Shown here one piece after another: positions 5,721 through 12,672 of a DNA stretch of 33,063 nucleotides (the first letter of the stretch is position 1; each line of letters begins with the position of its first letter). The stretch is from Myxococcota bacterium (GTDB taxonomy: Bacteria; Myxococcota_A; UBA796; CAJQPC01): contig JAKLKD010000065.1 in assembly GCA_023150845.1 (NCBI GenBank), forward strand, positions 1 to 33,063, given 5' to 3'. Below the pieces are notes generated by a model that did not search any database, was not told where the DNA came from, and saw only the letters and a list, made by a program, of their open reading frames with translations. The position numbers and the translations under genes were made by a program.

Positions 5721-6439
5721 ATGATCGAGCTCCTGTACTGGCCAACCCCCAACGGATGGAAGATCAGCATCGCCTTGGAGGAGCTTGAGCTCCGATCAGC
5801 ATCGCCTTGGAGGAGCTTGGGCTCCCCTACACCGTGCGCTCGGTGAACATCGGCCGGGGCGACCAGTTCCAGCCCGAGTTCCTCGCGGTGAGCCCCAACA
5901 ACCGCATCCCGGCGATCATCGACCACGCCCCGGCAGACGGCGGCCCGGCGATCTCCGTCTTTGAGTCAGGGGCGATCCTGCTCTACCTCGCCGAGAAGAC
6001 CGGGCGGCTCCTCCCCACGGACACCCGGGGGCGGCTTGAGGTGACCCAGTGGCTCATGTGGCAGATGGGCGGCCTCGGCCCCATGCTCGGCCAGACCCAC
6101 CACTTCCGGCAGTACGCGCCGGAGCAAATTCCTTACGCCATTGAGCGCTACACCCGAGAGGCCGCGCGTCTCTACGGGGTGCTCGACCGCCGCCTCGCCG
6201 ACCGCGAGTACATCGCCGGGGACTACTCCATCGCCGACATCGCGGCCTGGCCCTGGATCCTCCCCTACAAGCGCCAAGGCCAGGATCTCGAGAGCTTCCC
6301 CAACGTCAACCGCTGGTTCCGGGCCGTCGGGGCCCGCCCCGCCGTGCAGCGTGGGCAGGCCGTCGGCAAGGAGCAGGTGGTGCAGAACATGGACGAGCAG
6401 GCGAAGGACGTGCTCTTTCGCCGCCCGGCTGACAAATAA
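5721..6439 (+). pseudogene. yfcG: YfcG/Nu-class glutathione transferase-like gene, frameshifted by a 32-bp tandem duplication
   Basis: The ATG at 5721 follows TGGAGG and starts a thioredoxin-fold N-terminus (Tyr-Trp-Pro-Thr-Pro-Asn-Gly) typical of YfcG/YghU disulfide-bond reductases. After 24 codons a 32-bp tandem copy shifts the frame, and translation from this ATG stops at the TGA at 5844. From about 5807 the correct frame continues to 6439 with clear family motifs (Ser-Pro-Asn-Asn-Arg-Ile-Pro-Ala-Ile; Phe-Glu-Ser-Gly-Ala-Ile-Leu-Leu-Tyr-Leu) and an intact alpha-helical C-terminal domain. Removing one copy restores a 228-residue protein. A TTG at 5807 could begin a shortened product, but it lacks a ribosome site and would lose the first strand and active-site loop. 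The downstream selenoprotein begins 23 bases after the stop, so the pair looks like one redox operon. The duplication may be a real mutation or an assembly error. Confidence 0.85.
5762..5825 (+). repeat. 32-bp direct tandem duplication within the GST gene
   Basis: Copy 1 is 5762-5793 and copy 2 is 5794-5825. They differ at one base (A versus G at repeat position 27). Because 32 is not a multiple of three, the duplication shifts the frame of the GST gene. The mismatch argues against a simple re-read of identical sequence and would fit either an older duplication or two strain variants joined during assembly. Confidence 0.97.
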
Positions 6440-6462: not shown

Positions 6463-6999
6463 ATGTCGCAGGCTGCCCTCGATTCGTTGACCGTGCTCAC
6501 CCCCAGCGGCGAGGCCGTGCCGCTCCCGAGCCTCTGGGCCCGGGGGCCGGTCACCCTCGTGTTTGTCCGGCACTTTGGCTGAATCTTCTGCCGTGAGCAG
6601 GTCGCTCACCTCATGCAGAACGCGGCGCGCTTCAGCGCCTTAGGCGTTGAGCTGGTCGTCATCGGCAACGGCGCCCCCCACTTCGCCCAGGCCTTCTTGG
6701 AGGAGTTTCAGGTCACCCTGCCGCTCTACACGGATCCTTCGCTCAAGGTGTACGAGGCGATGGCGCTGCGGCGGGGCTGGCGCACGGCCTTCTCCCGCAA
6801 GACCTTCTCCGCCTCCGTCGAGGCGCTCAAGCGTGGGTTCCGCCAGGGCCGCACCCAAGGCGACGCCACCCAGCAGGGCGGCGTCTTCGTCATGCGGCGA
6901 GGCGGCGCAATCGTCTACCGCTACGTCAGCGAGGCCGCCGGGGACCACCCGCCCCTCGACGAGGTGCTCGCGGCGGCGGCCCAGGCCACCTCAGGCTGA
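6463..6999 (+). CDS. Peroxiredoxin-like (AhpC/TSA-2) selenoprotein, Sec40 encoded by in-frame TGA
   Basis: The ATG at 6463 follows GAGGAAGAG. The frame reads 39 codons to Arg-His-Phe-Gly, then TGA at 6580-6582, then Ile-Phe-Cys-Arg-Glu-Gln and a further 136 codons to the TGA at 6997. Relatives of the peroxiredoxin-like AhpC-TSA_2 family have Cys at this exact place in Arg-His-Phe-Gly-Cys-x-x-Cys-Arg-Glu-Gln, so the TGA sits at the active-site position, giving a Sec-x-x-Cys redox motif (Sec40, Cys43). Both sides are well conserved and need no frame change, and a SECIS-like hairpin follows. The full product is 178 residues, normal for the family. A start at the ATG at 6613 would lose the active site. 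It probably reduces peroxides or disulfides in the cytoplasm, in an operon with the upstream GST-like gene. Selenocysteine genes (selA, selB, selC, selD) are not in the window. Confidence 0.88.
6593..6609 (+). promoter_or_regulatory. Bacterial SECIS element candidate
   Basis: A perfect six-pair stem, GTGAGC with GCTCAC, encloses the five-base loop AGGTC, beginning 11 bases after the TGA. The loop matches the G-G-U core of known bacterial SECIS apical loops such as that of E. coli fdhF. A lower stem CTGC (6588-6591) with GCAG (6615-6618) may extend it across an internal loop. Position and loop fit SelB recognition; this is not experimentally shown. Confidence 0.8.
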
Positions 7000-7019: not shown

Positions 7020-9971
7020 CTAGGGGCTGAGCCGCGCCGCCCAGGCCGAGACCGCCGCCGGGTGCCCAGACAAGAGCGCCTGGATCGCGGCGGTGGCGGG
7101 ATCTTGGGCCTCGGGCGCCTCGTCGCTGGCGCTCGCGCTGGTGTCGTCGTTCACCTCAGCCCAGCCCCCGTCGAGGCCAAGCGCCGCGGCCCAGGCCTCC
7201 GTCGCCGCCGGGGCCGCGCGCAGAAGGCCGAAGGTGGCCAGCTCCTCGGGGGTGCGGGCGTCGGTCTTTGGCGCCCGGCCGGTCGGCCCAGGGGTAGGCG
7301 CAGGCCGCGCCGCCTCCCAGGGGGGCGTCCAGGCGTCGAGCTCGGCGAGGCTGCGTGGGGTGGACTGCACGACCTCTCGCATCAAAGCGGGGAGGATCGT
7401 GCCCGCCACGGGGCGTAAGGAGTCAAGCAGGCCCGGCAGCCAGGGCAAGAGCAGGGCCTCGGGCAGCTCCATGAACGCGCGGCTCAGCAGCTCCGCGGCC
7501 AAGGCCGAGACCAGGGGCGTGAAGCTCAAGGCCAAGAGCAGGCTTCCTAAGGCGCCGGGCAAGGCCGAGAGGCTCATGGGGTTGTCCATGAGCGCGTTGA
7601 ACTCGGCGCGCACCTCATCACCGCGCTTGAGCTCCAAGGTCCACTCCGCGGCCCACAAGAGCCCGAGCTTGCCCGGGTCGGTGGTGAGCGGCGCGGCCTG
7701 GCGCACGGCGATGATCACCTGGCTCCGCTGGCAGCCCAAAGAGAGCGCGAGGCTCTCCAAGGAGAAGACGAAGGCCAACATGCCCGCGAGCTGCTCAGGG
7801 CTCGTGCCCCGGTCGGCGAAGCTCTGGGGCAAGAGCGAGGCGTAGTGCTGGTAACCCGTGGCCACGAAGTCCCCGAGCCAGCGCGGCATGCCCTCGGGCC
7901 GGGCGCGCAGGTGGTGCACGAGGCGCCGCACCCGCTCAAAGAGCTCCCGGGCGTTCGCGGCGCTCAGCTCCAAGCGCAGCAGCTCCACGGCCCGCTCACC
8001 GAGCTCTTCAGAGAGCCGGTCCCGCTCAGCGAACAAGAGCGCGTCTTCAGCGAGGCCCAGGACCGTCGCCGCCGTCGCGCTCGGCGCGAAAGCCCGCTCG
8101 CGGAGCCGCCGCTCCAGCACCTGCTCGACGGTGATGCCCTCATACGCGAGCTCGATGAGATCGCGCAGGGCGGGGCCGTGGAGCTTGATGTCCCAGCTCT
8201 CTTGCACCCGGGGCACGCCGAGTCGGCGCTCGCCCATGACCGGCCGCACGGCGTCGCTCGACGGGAGGAGCGCGCGCAGGCGCCAGAGCAGGTCGGAGAC
8301 GGGGAGGAGCTTCGGGCCCTCCTTCCGCAGGTCCATCAAGGCGCGGGTGACCGTAGACTTGCCGGGGATGACGCCGACGGGGGCGAGGCGGTCGTAGACG
8401 TCGCGGACCAAGGGCGGCAGGGTGGAGTAGCCCACCTTGCCGACCCGGTCGCCGCCCATGACCATGCCGCAGAGGTGGCGCACGCTGCGCCGCATCGTCG
8501 GGTCGCCCTTGTCGAGGCAGGTCTCGGCGGCGTCGGCGAAGTCGAAGGGGCTCGGGTGCAGGCGCCCGCGCATCCGGGCGAGCAGCAGCGAGGTCTGGTA
8601 GATCGCGATGGCGTCGGCGGTGGACGCCATGTAGTGGTTCTCCCGGGCCTTGGCGACGACCCCGGTGCACCACTGGAGGAGCTGCTCGTGGTCCTCGGCC
8701 TGGAGACTCGGCGGCCGGGAGAGCACTGAAGACGCGCCCCCTTCAGTGGTGACCTCTTCAGGCGGCGGCGCGGCGGCCTTCTTCGTCTTGGCCTTGGGCT
8801 TCGGCGCCTCCACCTCGGCGCCCTCGGCGGCCTCCCCCTTGGCGGCCTTCGCCGCCTTGGGCAGAGGCATCGCCTTGAGGTTGAAGGCCTTGAGCGCCTT
8901 CTCCCAGCTCTGCTCGGCGACGGAGATGCTGCCCCGGGCGAGGCCAAACTGCCGCTCGATGGCGGAGTAAGACGAGGGGATGAAGCCGTACTGCCAGGGC
9001 GTGTTGGTGCGGGCGGGGATGTCCCAGCGGGGGTCGTCGGGCTGGCCGAGGCGCCCCGTGCCCCACTCCGGCACGTCCGAGGCGGCGTGGGCGGCGCCGC
9101 AGATGTACATCGCGTCCTTCGGCGAGATGCCCTTCGCGACGAGGTGGTCCTTCATGCGGGTCCACATGAAGCGCTCGCGCAGGCGGTCGCCCTCGACGTG
9201 CTCGGCGCGGCTGCCGAGGCGGCGGATGAGCGCCCCGACGAGCACCATCACCTGCCGCCAGGTGTTGTAGTCGGCGCCGATGGTCGGCTCATCGACGTAC
9301 ACGCTCCACCACTCGGAGAAGGTCGAGGCCCGGCTGTGCTCCAGCAGGCTCTCCAAGAACACCGGGAAGGTGGGCACGAGGCTGCCCAGCTCCACACCTA
9401 AGGCGCCGCCGTGCAGCCGGGCGTTCTCGTCGTCATCCGCGGGGCCGCTCGGGCCCGTCGGCGAGGACTCCTGGTTCGGCGACCACTGGAAGACGTGGTC
9501 CGAGGAGCGGTCCACGAAGACCAGCTCGACCTCGGGGTTGGCGAGGCCGTAACAGATCGCCTGGTACTCCGCGGAGAACGGCGTCATCGGCATCACCAAG
9601 GACAGCGGCAGCCAGCGCGGCGGGAAGGCCTCGCTCTCCCCAGCGAAGGCCTGCATCGCCACCGGGGGCACACAGGAGGCCAGCTCCGGCAACAACGCCT
9701 GGAGATCCTCGCAGGCCTCGATGAAGATGACCTTCGGGGCGAAGCGCTGGAGCCTGCGGATGAGCTGCACCGCGCAGGAGGGGCTGTGGTGGGCGACGGG
9801 GAAGATCTGCAGGGGCTCCCCCAGCACCCGGGCCACGTCGTCGGAGAGCCCGGCGAGCAAGGCGCTGAGGTGCTGGGCGTCGGGGGCCAGGTCGGCGGCG
9901 GCGCCGAGGAGCTGGGCCCGGAGCGCGGCGAAGGACTCGTCCTCGAGGACGCTGACGGTGGGGGCCATCAT
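7020..9971 (-). CDS. DUF5682 (YehM-like) protein, last gene of the MoxR-vWA operon
   Basis: The 983-residue product begins at tandem ATG codons (9971 or 9968) just after the stop of the ATPase gene, with GGTGAG as ribosome site. The N-terminal ~340 residues hold DUF5682 hallmarks: Val-Ala-His-His-Ser-Pro (His61-His62), an Ile-Glu-Ala-Cys strand (Glu85), Phe-Ser-Ala-Glu-Tyr-Gln-Ala-Ile (Glu135), a Phe-Val-Asp-Arg strand (Asp154) and Tyr-Ile-Cys-Gly-Ala-Ala-His (His295). A low-complexity Ala/Lys/Pro linker covers about 372-405. The C-terminal ~570 residues are mostly helical. No signal peptide or membrane span is seen, so it is probably cytoplasmic. E. coli YehM, in the yehLMPQ cluster, is the nearest known counterpart and is shorter (about 760 residues). 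Function is unknown; the family always deserves reading with its MoxR/vWA partners. Confidence 0.88.
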   Translation of the reverse strand: MMAPTVSVLEDESFAALRAQLLGAAADLAPDAQHLSALLAGLSDDVARVLGEPLQIFPVAHHSPSCAVQLIRRLQRFAPKVIFIEACEDLQALLPELASCVPPVAMQAFAGESEAFPPRWLPLSLVMPMTPFSAEYQAICYGLANPEVELVFVDRSSDHVFQWSPNQESSPTGPSGPADDDENARLHGGALGVELGSLVPTFPVFLESLLEHSRASTFSEWWSVYVDEPTIGADYNTWRQVMVLVGALIRRLGSRAEHVEGDRLRERFMWTRMKDHLVAKGISPKDAMYICGAAHAASDVPEWGTGRLGQPDDPRWDIPARTNTPWQYGFIPSSYSAIERQFGLARGSISVAEQSWEKALKAFNLKAMPLPKAAKAAKGEAAEGAEVEAPKPKAKTKKAAAPPPEEVTTEGGASSVLSRPPSLQAEDHEQLLQWCTGVVAKARENHYMASTADAIAIYQTSLLLARMRGRLHPSPFDFADAAETCLDKGDPTMRRSVRHLCGMVMGGDRVGKVGYSTLPPLVRDVYDRLAPVGVIPGKSTVTRALMDLRKEGPKLLPVSDLLWRLRALLPSSDAVRPVMGERRLGVPRVQESWDIKLHGPALRDLIELAYEGITVEQVLERRLRERAFAPSATAATVLGLAEDALLFAERDRLSEELGERAVELLRLELSAANARELFERVRRLVHHLRARPEGMPRWLGDFVATGYQHYASLLPQSFADRGTSPEQLAGMLAFVFSLESLALSLGCQRSQVIIAVRQAAPLTTDPGKLGLLWAAEWTLELKRGDEVRAEFNALMDNPMSLSALPGALGSLLLALSFTPLVSALAAELLSRAFMELPEALLLPWLPGLLDSLRPVAGTILPALMREVVQSTPRSLAELDAWTPPWEAARPAPTPGPTGRAPKTDARTPEELATFGLLRAAPAATEAWAAALGLDGGWAEVNDDTSASASDEAPEAQDPATAAIQALLSGHPAAVSAWAARLSP

Positions 9972-9972
9972 C

Positions 9973-11100
9973 TCACCCGAGCTGCTTGAGGGCCTCTTTG
10001 CCACCCTCCAAGAAGCCGACCCAGTCACCCTTCTCTTTGCTGGCGTGCTTGTCGACGACGCTGTGCCAGAAGCGGTTCATGACGCTCACGTCCTCGGGGA
10101 TGCGGCGCACGAGGGTGCCGACGACCGACGCCGCGACGAGCTCCGGGCGCACGACGGCGTCGCCGAAGAAGCGACTGTGCAGCACGGCGTCCTCCAGCAC
10201 GCCGATCTGCTCGGCGGTCGAGAGCGAGGACTCCAGGCGGCCGTCGTCGGTGTTCGCCGCGGCGGAGGCCTGGCGCAGATCCTCAAAGGTGCGCAGCAGC
10301 ACGTCGAGGAGCGAGGGCGGCACGTCGATCTCAAACCCGGCGCGGGCGAGCAGATCTTTGACGCGGAAGAGCACAATCTTCTTCTCGGCGGCCCGGGACT
10401 GCACGATGGGGATCTGCACGAAGTTGAAGCGGCGCTTGAGCGCGGAGGAGAGGTCGTTCACCCCGCGGTCGCGGCTGTTCGCCGTGGCGATGAGGTTGAA
10501 GCCGGGCCGGGCGAAGACGGTGTTGTCGTCGCGAAGCTCGGGGATGGAGATGTACTTCTCAGACAGGATCGAGATCAGCGCGTCCTGCACGTCCGAGGTG
10601 CAGCGGGTGAGCTCCTCAAACCGGCCCATCTCGCCGCGCTGCATGGCGGTCATGATGGGCGAGGGGATCATCGACTCCTTGGACTGCCCGGCGGCGATGA
10701 CCATGGCGACGTTCCAGGAGTACTTGATCTGGTCTTCCGTGGTGCCCGCGGTGCCCTGCACGACGTAGGTGCTGTTGGAGCAGACCGCCGCCGAGAGCAG
10801 CTCGGCGAGCCAGCTCTTGCCCGTGCCCGGGTCGCCGATGAGCAGCAGGCCGCGGTCCGACGCCAAGGTGACGATGGCGCGCTCGACGATGGACGCCGGG
10901 CCGAACCACTTCTGGGGGATCTCCCGGGGCAGCTTGTCTTGGGGGCTTGAGCCCAAGACGAAGGTGCGCACCATACGCGGGGTGAGGCGCCAAGAGGACG
11001 GGCGCGGGCCGGTGTCATGGGCCGCGAGGAAGGCGAGCTCCTCGGCGTAGCGGGCCTCGGCGGGGAGGCGCAGGACCTCGGACTTGGACGTGTCGCTCAT
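9973..11100 (-). CDS. MoxR-family AAA+ ATPase, YehL subfamily
   Basis: The 375-residue product carries Walker A Gly-Asp-Pro-Gly-Thr-Gly-Lys-Ser (89-96), a sensor-1 Ala-Thr-Ala-Asn strand (Asn208) and an Arg-Arg pair (223-224) in the arginine-finger region, then the helical lid. The Walker B region is atypical: Met-Gly-Arg-Phe-Glu-Glu (158-163), with Glu162-Glu163 instead of hydrophobic-Asp-Glu. The following Thr-Ser-Asp-Val-Gln-Asp-Ala-Leu-Ile-Ser helix matches the YehL subfamily. MoxR ATPases act as chaperone-like remodelers, normally with a vWA partner, which here is the gene immediately upstream. Ribosome site CGGAG. The gap to the vWA gene is 21 bases and the DUF5682 start adjoins its stop, so they are very likely cotranscribed. 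Confidence 0.93.
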   Translation of the reverse strand: MSDTSKSEVLRLPAEARYAEELAFLAAHDTGPRPSSWRLTPRMVRTFVLGSSPQDKLPREIPQKWFGPASIVERAIVTLASDRGLLLIGDPGTGKSWLAELLSAAVCSNSTYVVQGTAGTTEDQIKYSWNVAMVIAAGQSKESMIPSPIMTAMQRGEMGRFEELTRCTSDVQDALISILSEKYISIPELRDDNTVFARPGFNLIATANSRDRGVNDLSSALKRRFNFVQIPIVQSRAAEKKIVLFRVKDLLARAGFEIDVPPSLLDVLLRTFEDLRQASAAANTDDGRLESSLSTAEQIGVLEDAVLHSRFFGDAVVRPELVAASVVGTLVRRIPEDVSVMNRFWHSVVDKHASKEKGDWVGFLEGGKEALKQLG

Positions 11101-11121
11101 CGTGGGCTCCGGTCGAAAGGG

Positions 11122-12672
11122 TCAGGGCAGCGCGGCGCGCAGCTCTCGGATGAGGGTCTTGAGGCTGCCCGACATCAGGGGGATGCCGTGCGTCTTGAAC
11201 TGCTGGCGGAAGTAAGGGTTCACGTTGAAGTAGCCCCCGCTGGACACGGATCCGACGGGGATGAAGGTGACGCCGGCCGCGACGACGTTCTTGATCATCG
11301 CGAAGAGCGGCTGGTCGTTGTTGAACTCGTAGAAGTCGGAGATCCACACCATGACGGTGTCCTTGGGGTCCTGGATCTTCGCCTGGGCGACGAGCATGGC
11401 CTTGGGGCCGTCGTTCCCGCCGCCGAGGTTCGTGCGCAGCAGGACCTCCAGCGGGTCGTTGATCCAGGGGCTCAGGTCGATGACCTGGGTGTCGAAGACC
11501 ACGAGGTGGCCGTCCACCTTCGGCAAAGCCGCGAAGATCGACGCCAGGATGGTGCAGTTGACCATCGCGCTCACCATCGAGCCCGACTGGTCCACCACGA
11601 CGATGAGCCGGGTGTTGGAGGTGCGCGCCGAGCCCCGGCGGTAGTAGAGCCGGTTCACCATGAGGCGGCGGCGCTCGGGGTCCCAGTTGATGAGGTTCTT
11701 GTTGATCGGGCGCTTTAGATCGAGGTTCCTGAACACCCGCTTCGGCGGAACACGAGGATCCACCTTCGCTTTGGAGGCGCTCTTGACCTGGCGCTTGAGC
11801 ACGTCGGCGAGGTCGTTCACGTACTTCTTGATCAGCATCTTCGCGTTCGTGAGGGCCTCACCGCTGAGGTTCTTCTTGTCGCGGAGGAGCTGCTCGACGA
11901 GGTCCATCGACGGCGTGAGCTTCTCGGCCAAGGCGCGGTCCTTGAGGACCTCTCGCAAGGCCATGCGATTGATGAGGCTCTTCTCCAGGTGGGAGAGGGC
12001 GTTCTTGACCTCGGGCTCCGACATGAGGCCGCGGCCCGCCCGGGCCTCGTTCACGGCGAAGTTGAGGTCGTCGTCGTGAATCTCGGGGGCGACGCCCGTG
12101 GCGTCGGTGTCTTGGGCGTCGGGGCCATAACCGCCGCCGCTTCCGCCGCCGCCGCCTCCGTCCCCTCGCAGCCCGCCCCGGGGGTAACCGAGGGCCTGCT
12201 CAAAGCGGCTGACGTCCTGGAGCCAGTCGTTGTACTGCTTCGCCGAGACCTGGGACGAGCCCATGCCCGGCGAGAACACGTTCTGGAGCATCTTCCCGAA
12301 GAGCATCATCGCCCGGAGCTGCTCCCGCGCGCCGTGCCCGTCCTGGCCCAGGCTGGAGGCGAAGCTCGTGGCCTGGGCGCTCGGCGCCTCGGCGTCTTCA
12401 CCGGGCTCGCCGTCTTCACCCTCCTCGGCGGGCTGGGGCGGGTTCAGCACCTGCTCCAGGCGCTCGTAGTCGTCGCGCAGGCTCTTGTCGCGGCGCAAGA
12501 GGTCGTTCACCGAGGGGCGACGGTCGAGCACCAGGGGCGGCACGTCTACCTTCCCGGCGATCTCCAAGGCGAGCTTCGACAGCTCCTTCGGGGGGCCGTC
12601 TTCGCTCAGGGCCGAGGCCAAGGACCACCAGGAGAGCACCTGGCGGCGGTTCTTCGCGGCGCGCTCGTCCAT
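11122..12672 (-). CDS. vWA-domain protein (YehP-like) with intact MIDAS
   Basis: The 516-residue product has a mainly helical N-terminal region, an acidic Glu/Asp/Pro-rich stretch (about 80-98), a glycine-rich linker (about 166-183) and a second helical region (about 200-300). The C-terminal vWA domain has all metal-site elements: Asp361-x-Ser363-x-Ser365, a Thr near 414 in Leu-Arg-Thr-Asn-Leu-Gly-Gly, and Asp446 in Trp-Ile-Ser-Asp-Phe. It therefore should bind Mg2+ and a protein ligand, as CoxE- and YehP-type partners of MoxR ATPases do. It is longer than YehP (about 380 residues), mainly from the extra N-terminal and glycine-rich parts. No secretion signal. It lies 11 bases after the unknown gene and 21 before the ATPase gene. 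Confidence 0.92.
   Translation of the reverse strand: MDERAAKNRRQVLSWWSLASALSEDGPPKELSKLALEIAGKVDVPPLVLDRRPSVNDLLRRDKSLRDDYERLEQVLNPPQPAEEGEDGEPGEDAEAPSAQATSFASSLGQDGHGAREQLRAMMLFGKMLQNVFSPGMGSSQVSAKQYNDWLQDVSRFEQALGYPRGGLRGDGGGGGGSGGGYGPDAQDTDATGVAPEIHDDDLNFAVNEARAGRGLMSEPEVKNALSHLEKSLINRMALREVLKDRALAEKLTPSMDLVEQLLRDKKNLSGEALTNAKMLIKKYVNDLADVLKRQVKSASKAKVDPRVPPKRVFRNLDLKRPINKNLINWDPERRRLMVNRLYYRRGSARTSNTRLIVVVDQSGSMVSAMVNCTILASIFAALPKVDGHLVVFDTQVIDLSPWINDPLEVLLRTNLGGGNDGPKAMLVAQAKIQDPKDTVMVWISDFYEFNNDQPLFAMIKNVVAAGVTFIPVGSVSSGGYFNVNPYFRQQFKTHGIPLMSGSLKTLIRELRAALP

Follow-up and report, generated by a model that had tools for sequence, protein, structure and literature searches.

An in-frame UGA in a SelL/PRXL2-like redox gene of a Myxococcota bacterium very probably encodes selenocysteine

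A 33,063-nucleotide contig of a Myxococcota bacterium (all of which we call the window) contains a redox gene whose reading frame is interrupted by a TGA, raising the question of whether this codon ends translation or is read as selenocysteine (Sec). One frame runs from the ATG at position 6463 through the TGA at 6580-6582 to a terminal TGA at 6997-6999, giving 178 residues with the internal TGA at position 40. The translation around it reads ...FVRHFG-U-IFCREQVAHL..., i.e., the first Cys of the motif R-H-F-G-[C/U]-x-x-C-R-E-Q is replaced by TGA. The features of the gene are as follows.

6463 to 6999, plus strand: candidate selenoprotein gene for a SelL/PRXL2-like redox protein of 178 residues (UxxC, with Sec as residue 40), ending in TGA 6997-6999
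6580 to 6582, plus strand: in-frame TGA, predicted Sec, first UxxC position; TGA at the same codon in relatives and TGC or TGT in Cys forms
6589 to 6591, plus strand: TGC, second (probably resolving) Cys43 of UxxC, an invariant column
6593 to 6609, plus strand: SECIS-type apical hairpin with a 6-bp stem, the loop AGGUC at 6599-6603, and 16 nt from UGA to loop

We searched 142 genomes, the nearest sharing the host's genus and the most distant only its phylum, for close homologues (E value below 1e-20). Of these genomes, 34 have such a homologue with one in-frame TGA, including the sister species (88% identity). In all 32 Sec forms that were read in detail, the TGA lies at the same codon within the motif R-H-[FY]-G-U-x-x-C, and UxxC is common to the whole set. 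Between the window gene and its counterpart in the sister species, dN/dS was 0.28 upstream of the TGA and 0.09 downstream, which indicates that both flanks are selected as protein. A reading made earlier from the sequence only had placed the TGA at the active-site Cys, in frame on both sides, and the TGA at the same codon in relatives bears this out.

Under the standard code, the sole ORF listed in the frame of 6463 spans 6613..6999 (ATG, 128 amino acids [aa]), which is the truncation that the sequence-only reading expected of automatic gene calling. It is very unlikely that this ORF, although it is the only standard one over most of the stretch in its frame, represents the real gene, with a noncoding leader or a separate short peptide upstream. 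Its product would have neither the first strand nor the UxxC active site, whereas residues 1 to 39 show homology throughout the relatives and selection at the protein level. Moreover, 24 Sec forms are invariant at residues 36-37, 39-40, 43, and 45, as well as at several Gly and Gln positions in the C-terminal half. Standard gene calling in this lineage would therefore leave a 128-aa fragment without the active site.

Still less probable is a pseudogene, in which a nonsense mutation has turned TGC or TGT into TGA and the gene is decaying. The adjoining glutathione S-transferase (GST)-like gene does carry a frameshifting 32-bp duplication, but about 34 genomes, that of the sister species among them, share this very TGA codon, and dN/dS is low on both sides. 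A sequencing or assembly error at 6580 is just as improbable: drafts can contain errors, and there is one suspicious duplication nearby in the window, but many species, each assembled independently, have this TGA at the same codon. The recurrence of this TGA, together with purifying selection on its flanks, thus argues against both an error and a pseudogene.

An alignment with homologues carrying Cys at position 40, which had been proposed as a check, showed TGC or TGT in the Cys forms and TGA in the Sec forms. A GTDB-wide scan, which could find Cys forms only because its queries were Cys back-translations, returned 138 Cys-form relatives across many phyla, and relatives in other phyla have TGC or TGT at the Sec codon position. 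In a quick tree of 119 sequences, Sec and Cys forms are intermixed, with about 11 changes, at least three of which are forced by starred branches. This mixing points to repeated Sec/Cys exchange in the gene family, as read from a poorly resolved tree. Genes of the host's relatives group with named Myxococcota records, which points to that phylum for the host. With 32 genes of the Sec form and 66 of the Cys form, the comparison allows Sec-to-Cys exchange and SECIS gain to be studied within one family.

The hairpin starts 11 nt after the TGA and has the sequence GUGAGC-AGGUC-GCUCAC. The published model of bacterial SECIS elements calls for a loop of 3 to 9 nt, a stem of 4 to 16 bp, a G in the first two loop positions, 16 to 37 nt from UGA to loop, and a minimum free energy of at most -7.5 kcal/mol (PMC13188914). 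With a 5-nt loop, a 6-bp stem, G at loop position 2, a distance of 16 nt, and a minimum free energy of -9.4 kcal/mol over a 30-nt stretch (-25.5 over 61 nt), the window hairpin agrees with the model on every count. The earlier description of a six-pair hairpin with the loop AGGTC, 11 bases on and resembling the fdhF SECIS, was therefore accurate.

Covariation was measured over 18 type-A sequences, i.e., those with the same register as the window, with N padding in the loop for alignment. Across these, 96.3% of cells were paired, and both-sided changes occurred in 9 cells versus 2.1 expected. The covariation score was 0.273, compared with 0.102 ± 0.024 for shuffled data (0/500) and at most 0.131 for slid partners. 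Covariation is clearest where the wobble base of the Arg codon tracks its opposite base (U-A, C-G, or G-C); as the three innermost stem pairs never vary, the signal rests on two outer pairs. As a second control, hairpin stability was compared with that of synonymous recodings of the same peptide. The hairpins of the 32 Sec forms were more stable than their recodings (mean z, -1.47; P = 3e-9 by a Wilcoxon test), and the window gene alone stood at 0.043. The 66 Cys forms had a mean z of 0.00 (P = 1e-9 for the difference between Sec and Cys forms). In Sec-form genes, compensatory and synonymous changes preserve the hairpin, which Cys-form genes lack.

In about 10 Sec forms, including the dehydrogenase fusions described below, the SECIS takes another register: its sequence is typically GUCGCGC-AGUU-GCGCGAC, and the loop follows the UGA by 25 nt, which also satisfies the bacterial SECIS model. 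In L136, L137, L139, L140, L144, L145, L151, and L163, this SECIS-like hairpin (loop AGUU) lies 9 nt further downstream than that of the window gene. The presence of two registers in one family might reflect reinvention or migration of the recoding signal around a fixed Sec codon.

The sequence-only reading implied that the host makes Sec and proposed a search for the sel genes. In the host genome (7.1 Mb in 444 contigs, 95.7% complete), selA (487 bits; cutoff, 268), selB (311 bits; cutoff, 242), and selD (374 bits; cutoff, 125) are all present. The host selD (G000:C167:174-1097, L019) is itself a Sec gene: an in-frame TGA lies within DCAG-U-ASK, and a strong hairpin comes next. Across the relatives, selA was found in 33 of 34 Sec-form genomes versus 66 of 108 others (P = 2.4e-5 by Fisher's test), and the sole Sec-form genome without selA (G034) has a tRNA-Sec above the Rfam cutoff.

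The remaining component, tRNA-Sec, scored above the Rfam cutoff in most of 58 relatives, with ARAGORN confirming those examined, and is present in another genus of the host's family (G002). It was not found in the host draft, which was searched with the Rfam model, a clade-specific covariance model, a BLAST query, and a pattern, nor in the sister draft (840 contigs), which was searched with the same two models and the BLAST query; scoring was confined to the best candidates from a permissive first step. The first pattern proved too strict, as relatives also carry GAGTTCGATTCTC. No conserved neighbor of use emerged when the genes flanking tRNA-Sec were compared. In a third genome of the same family (G003), a contig stops inside the tRNA-Sec gene (C264 end, L207), which makes loss of the gene during assembly of the host and sister drafts plausible. 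The G003 contig also suggests that assemblers may break at tRNA-Sec, with possible underreporting in drafts of the host's family. The claim of Sec synthesis thus stands for selA, selB, and selD, with tRNA-Sec not found in the draft.

Genome-wide reassignment of TGA, for instance to Trp, is the least credible alternative, having the in-frame TGA in its favor and nothing further, whereas the same ORF terminates in TGA, selA, selB, and selD are present, the column holds Cys and never Trp in homologues, and a SECIS-like hairpin under selection follows the codon.

We are therefore highly confident that positions 6463-6999 are a genuine bacterial selenoprotein gene, in which UGA 6580 is decoded as Sec to give a SelL-related/PRXL2 (AhpC-TSA_2) product. 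Computation establishes the recoded codon and its conservation, the SECIS-type structure, the presence of selA, selB, and selD, and the family; from these sequences we infer that Sec is actually inserted at position 40.

With the TGA read as Cys, the protein matches AhpC-TSA_2 (PF13911) at 73.8 bits (gathering cutoff, 27). It also matches the SelL-related redox protein family NF040769 at 131.3 bits (cutoff, 120), as do 24 of 24 members of the Sec-form alignment A1. The best solved-structure match of the family profile is prostamide/prostaglandin F synthase, PRXL2B (PDB 9us9 and 9usa; E = 3.7e-24), over positions 13-173, including the active-site motif, which is FGCVVC in the solved protein. 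The motif PxxxT(S)xxC of classical 2-Cys and 1-Cys peroxiredoxins is absent; the active site is RHFGUxxC, at the thioredoxin-like CxxC position. Likewise, the protein lacks the UxxU motif of SelL proper, the second position being TGC (Cys). The earlier label of a peroxiredoxin-like AhpC-TSA_2 protein thus holds for the Pfam domain and needs narrowing to the SelL-related/PRXL2 group rather than the classical peroxiredoxins.

Judging from these similarities, the product is most likely a Sec-x-x-Cys thioredoxin-fold reductase or peroxidase. In thioredoxin-fold CxxC chemistry, the first residue is the nucleophile and the second Cys is the resolving thiol; by analogy, Sec40 is likely the nucleophile and Cys43 the resolving thiol. 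In the mechanism that we propose, SelB and tRNA-Sec would decode UGA 6580 as Sec, directed by the hairpin at 6593-6609, to yield a single-domain thioredoxin-fold protein. Sec40 would then attack and reduce a peroxide or disulfide substrate, and Cys43 would resolve the product through an intramolecular Se-S bond. A cellular thiol may re-reduce the enzyme, either thioredoxin or glutathione, the latter possibly via the YfcG/YghU-like GST in the host genus.

Six loci of relatives (L027, L028, L030, L031, L042, and L047) join a Sec-form UxxC domain to a short-chain dehydrogenase in one ORF, and PF00106 was confirmed in two of them (L028 and L031). Such fusions may be a clue to the substrate and would fit a two-step redox conversion; they offer a concrete, biochemically testable pointer to function. 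Separately, both genomes of the genus have a paralogue (G000:C253:2748-3218, L168, and G001:C171, L169) with Ser as the first active-site residue (RHLGSPFC). The host copy was considered as a further selenoprotein and rejected, its active site being SPFC and its TGA a true terminal stop.

Upstream of the selenoprotein gene lies the GST-like gene, which the sequence-only reading had presented as a partner.

5722 to 6439, plus strand: GST-like gene, YfcG/YghU group glutathione-dependent disulfide-bond oxidoreductase; 5′ part out of frame, remaining ORF 5807-6439
5762 to 5825, plus strand: 32-bp tandem duplication, two copies with one mismatch; shifts the GST frame and is absent from the sister genome

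The best NCBIfam matches of the GST ORF are to the Escherichia coli proteins YfcG (238 bits) and YghU (186 bits), both below the equivalog cutoffs (332 and 325, respectively), and in the window the start of the gene is out of frame. At the corresponding locus of the sister genome (L133), the 32-bp unit is present in a single copy and the GST gene is intact; the duplication in the window may be real or an assembly artifact. Among the loci tested, that of the sister genome, from the host's genus, was the only one to give a GST match at the search threshold beside the selenoprotein gene, and we rejected the pairing as a general functional link. The two genes do adjoin in the host and sister genomes, but with the pairing limited to the genus among the loci tested, and with the window's GST thrown out of frame by a duplication, real or artifactual, the claim of a partnership is weak. 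Directly downstream of the selenoprotein gene, on the minus strand (7020-12672), lies a cluster encoding DUF5682, MoxR-like AAA_5 ATPase, and VWA_CoxE proteins.

Selenium use in Myxococcota is already known. A 2006 list gives 11 selenoproteins for Anaeromyxobacter dehalogenans, with the window's not among them by name (PMC1794560). Among the open-access papers searched, none joins Myxococcota, selenoprotein, and selenocysteine, although such an absence proves little. The window gene is a well-supported added case of a known kind of selenoprotein, with the dehydrogenase fusions and the two SECIS registers as side results.

Bacterial SelL reportedly has a single SECIS within the coding region. 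The window protein falls in the same curated-HMM family and likewise has Sec in a thioredoxin-like motif, but it is UxxC with one Sec, whereas in SelL proper a single SECIS serves two Sec residues (PMC3316567). An AhpC/TSA family selenoprotein (cd02970/PF13911) has been catalogued as UxxS (PMC13188914, PMC9312934); it shares the Pfam/CDD domain and has Sec first in the motif, in contrast to the UxxC of the window protein. By review convention, a different motif in the same domain marks a different subfamily (PMC9312934), so UxxC in PF13911 could count as one. That peroxiredoxin-like bacterial selenoproteins had been predicted before, as the sequence-only reading stated, is correct: UxxC families were reported in the Sargasso Sea and GOS metagenome surveys (PMC1088965, PMC2398784), and algal AhpC_b has prokaryotic Cys homologues (PMC7539508). 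These proteins are likewise UxxC, distantly peroxiredoxin-like, and of thioredoxin fold but are assigned in those surveys to other domains (PF00578, PF08534, PF04592, and COG0450); the distinction drawn here is one of domain assignment.

PRXL2B and SelU (PRXL2A) are also among the closest known systems; in the alignment of the family profile, the likeness to PRXL2B extends over the whole domain and the active-site motif, and the solved PRXL2B is a Cys form. Prostamide/prostaglandin F synthase acts on prostaglandin endoperoxides. Tentatively, and with the balance of probability against it, the Sec forms might constitute a UxxC subfamily of SelL/PRXL2 selenoproteins that spans the phylum Myxococcota and has so far gone uncatalogued, with some members fused to a short-chain dehydrogenase and with SECIS registers at 16 and 25 nt that were reinvented or migrated around a fixed Sec codon. 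If so, the PRXL2B likeness and the dehydrogenase fusions would be in keeping with a lipid endoperoxide or hydroperoxide being reduced first and the resulting product then undergoing oxidoreduction. The window gene adds a Sec-x-x-Cys member to a family that has been catalogued in bacteria with UxxS or, in SelL, with two Sec residues.
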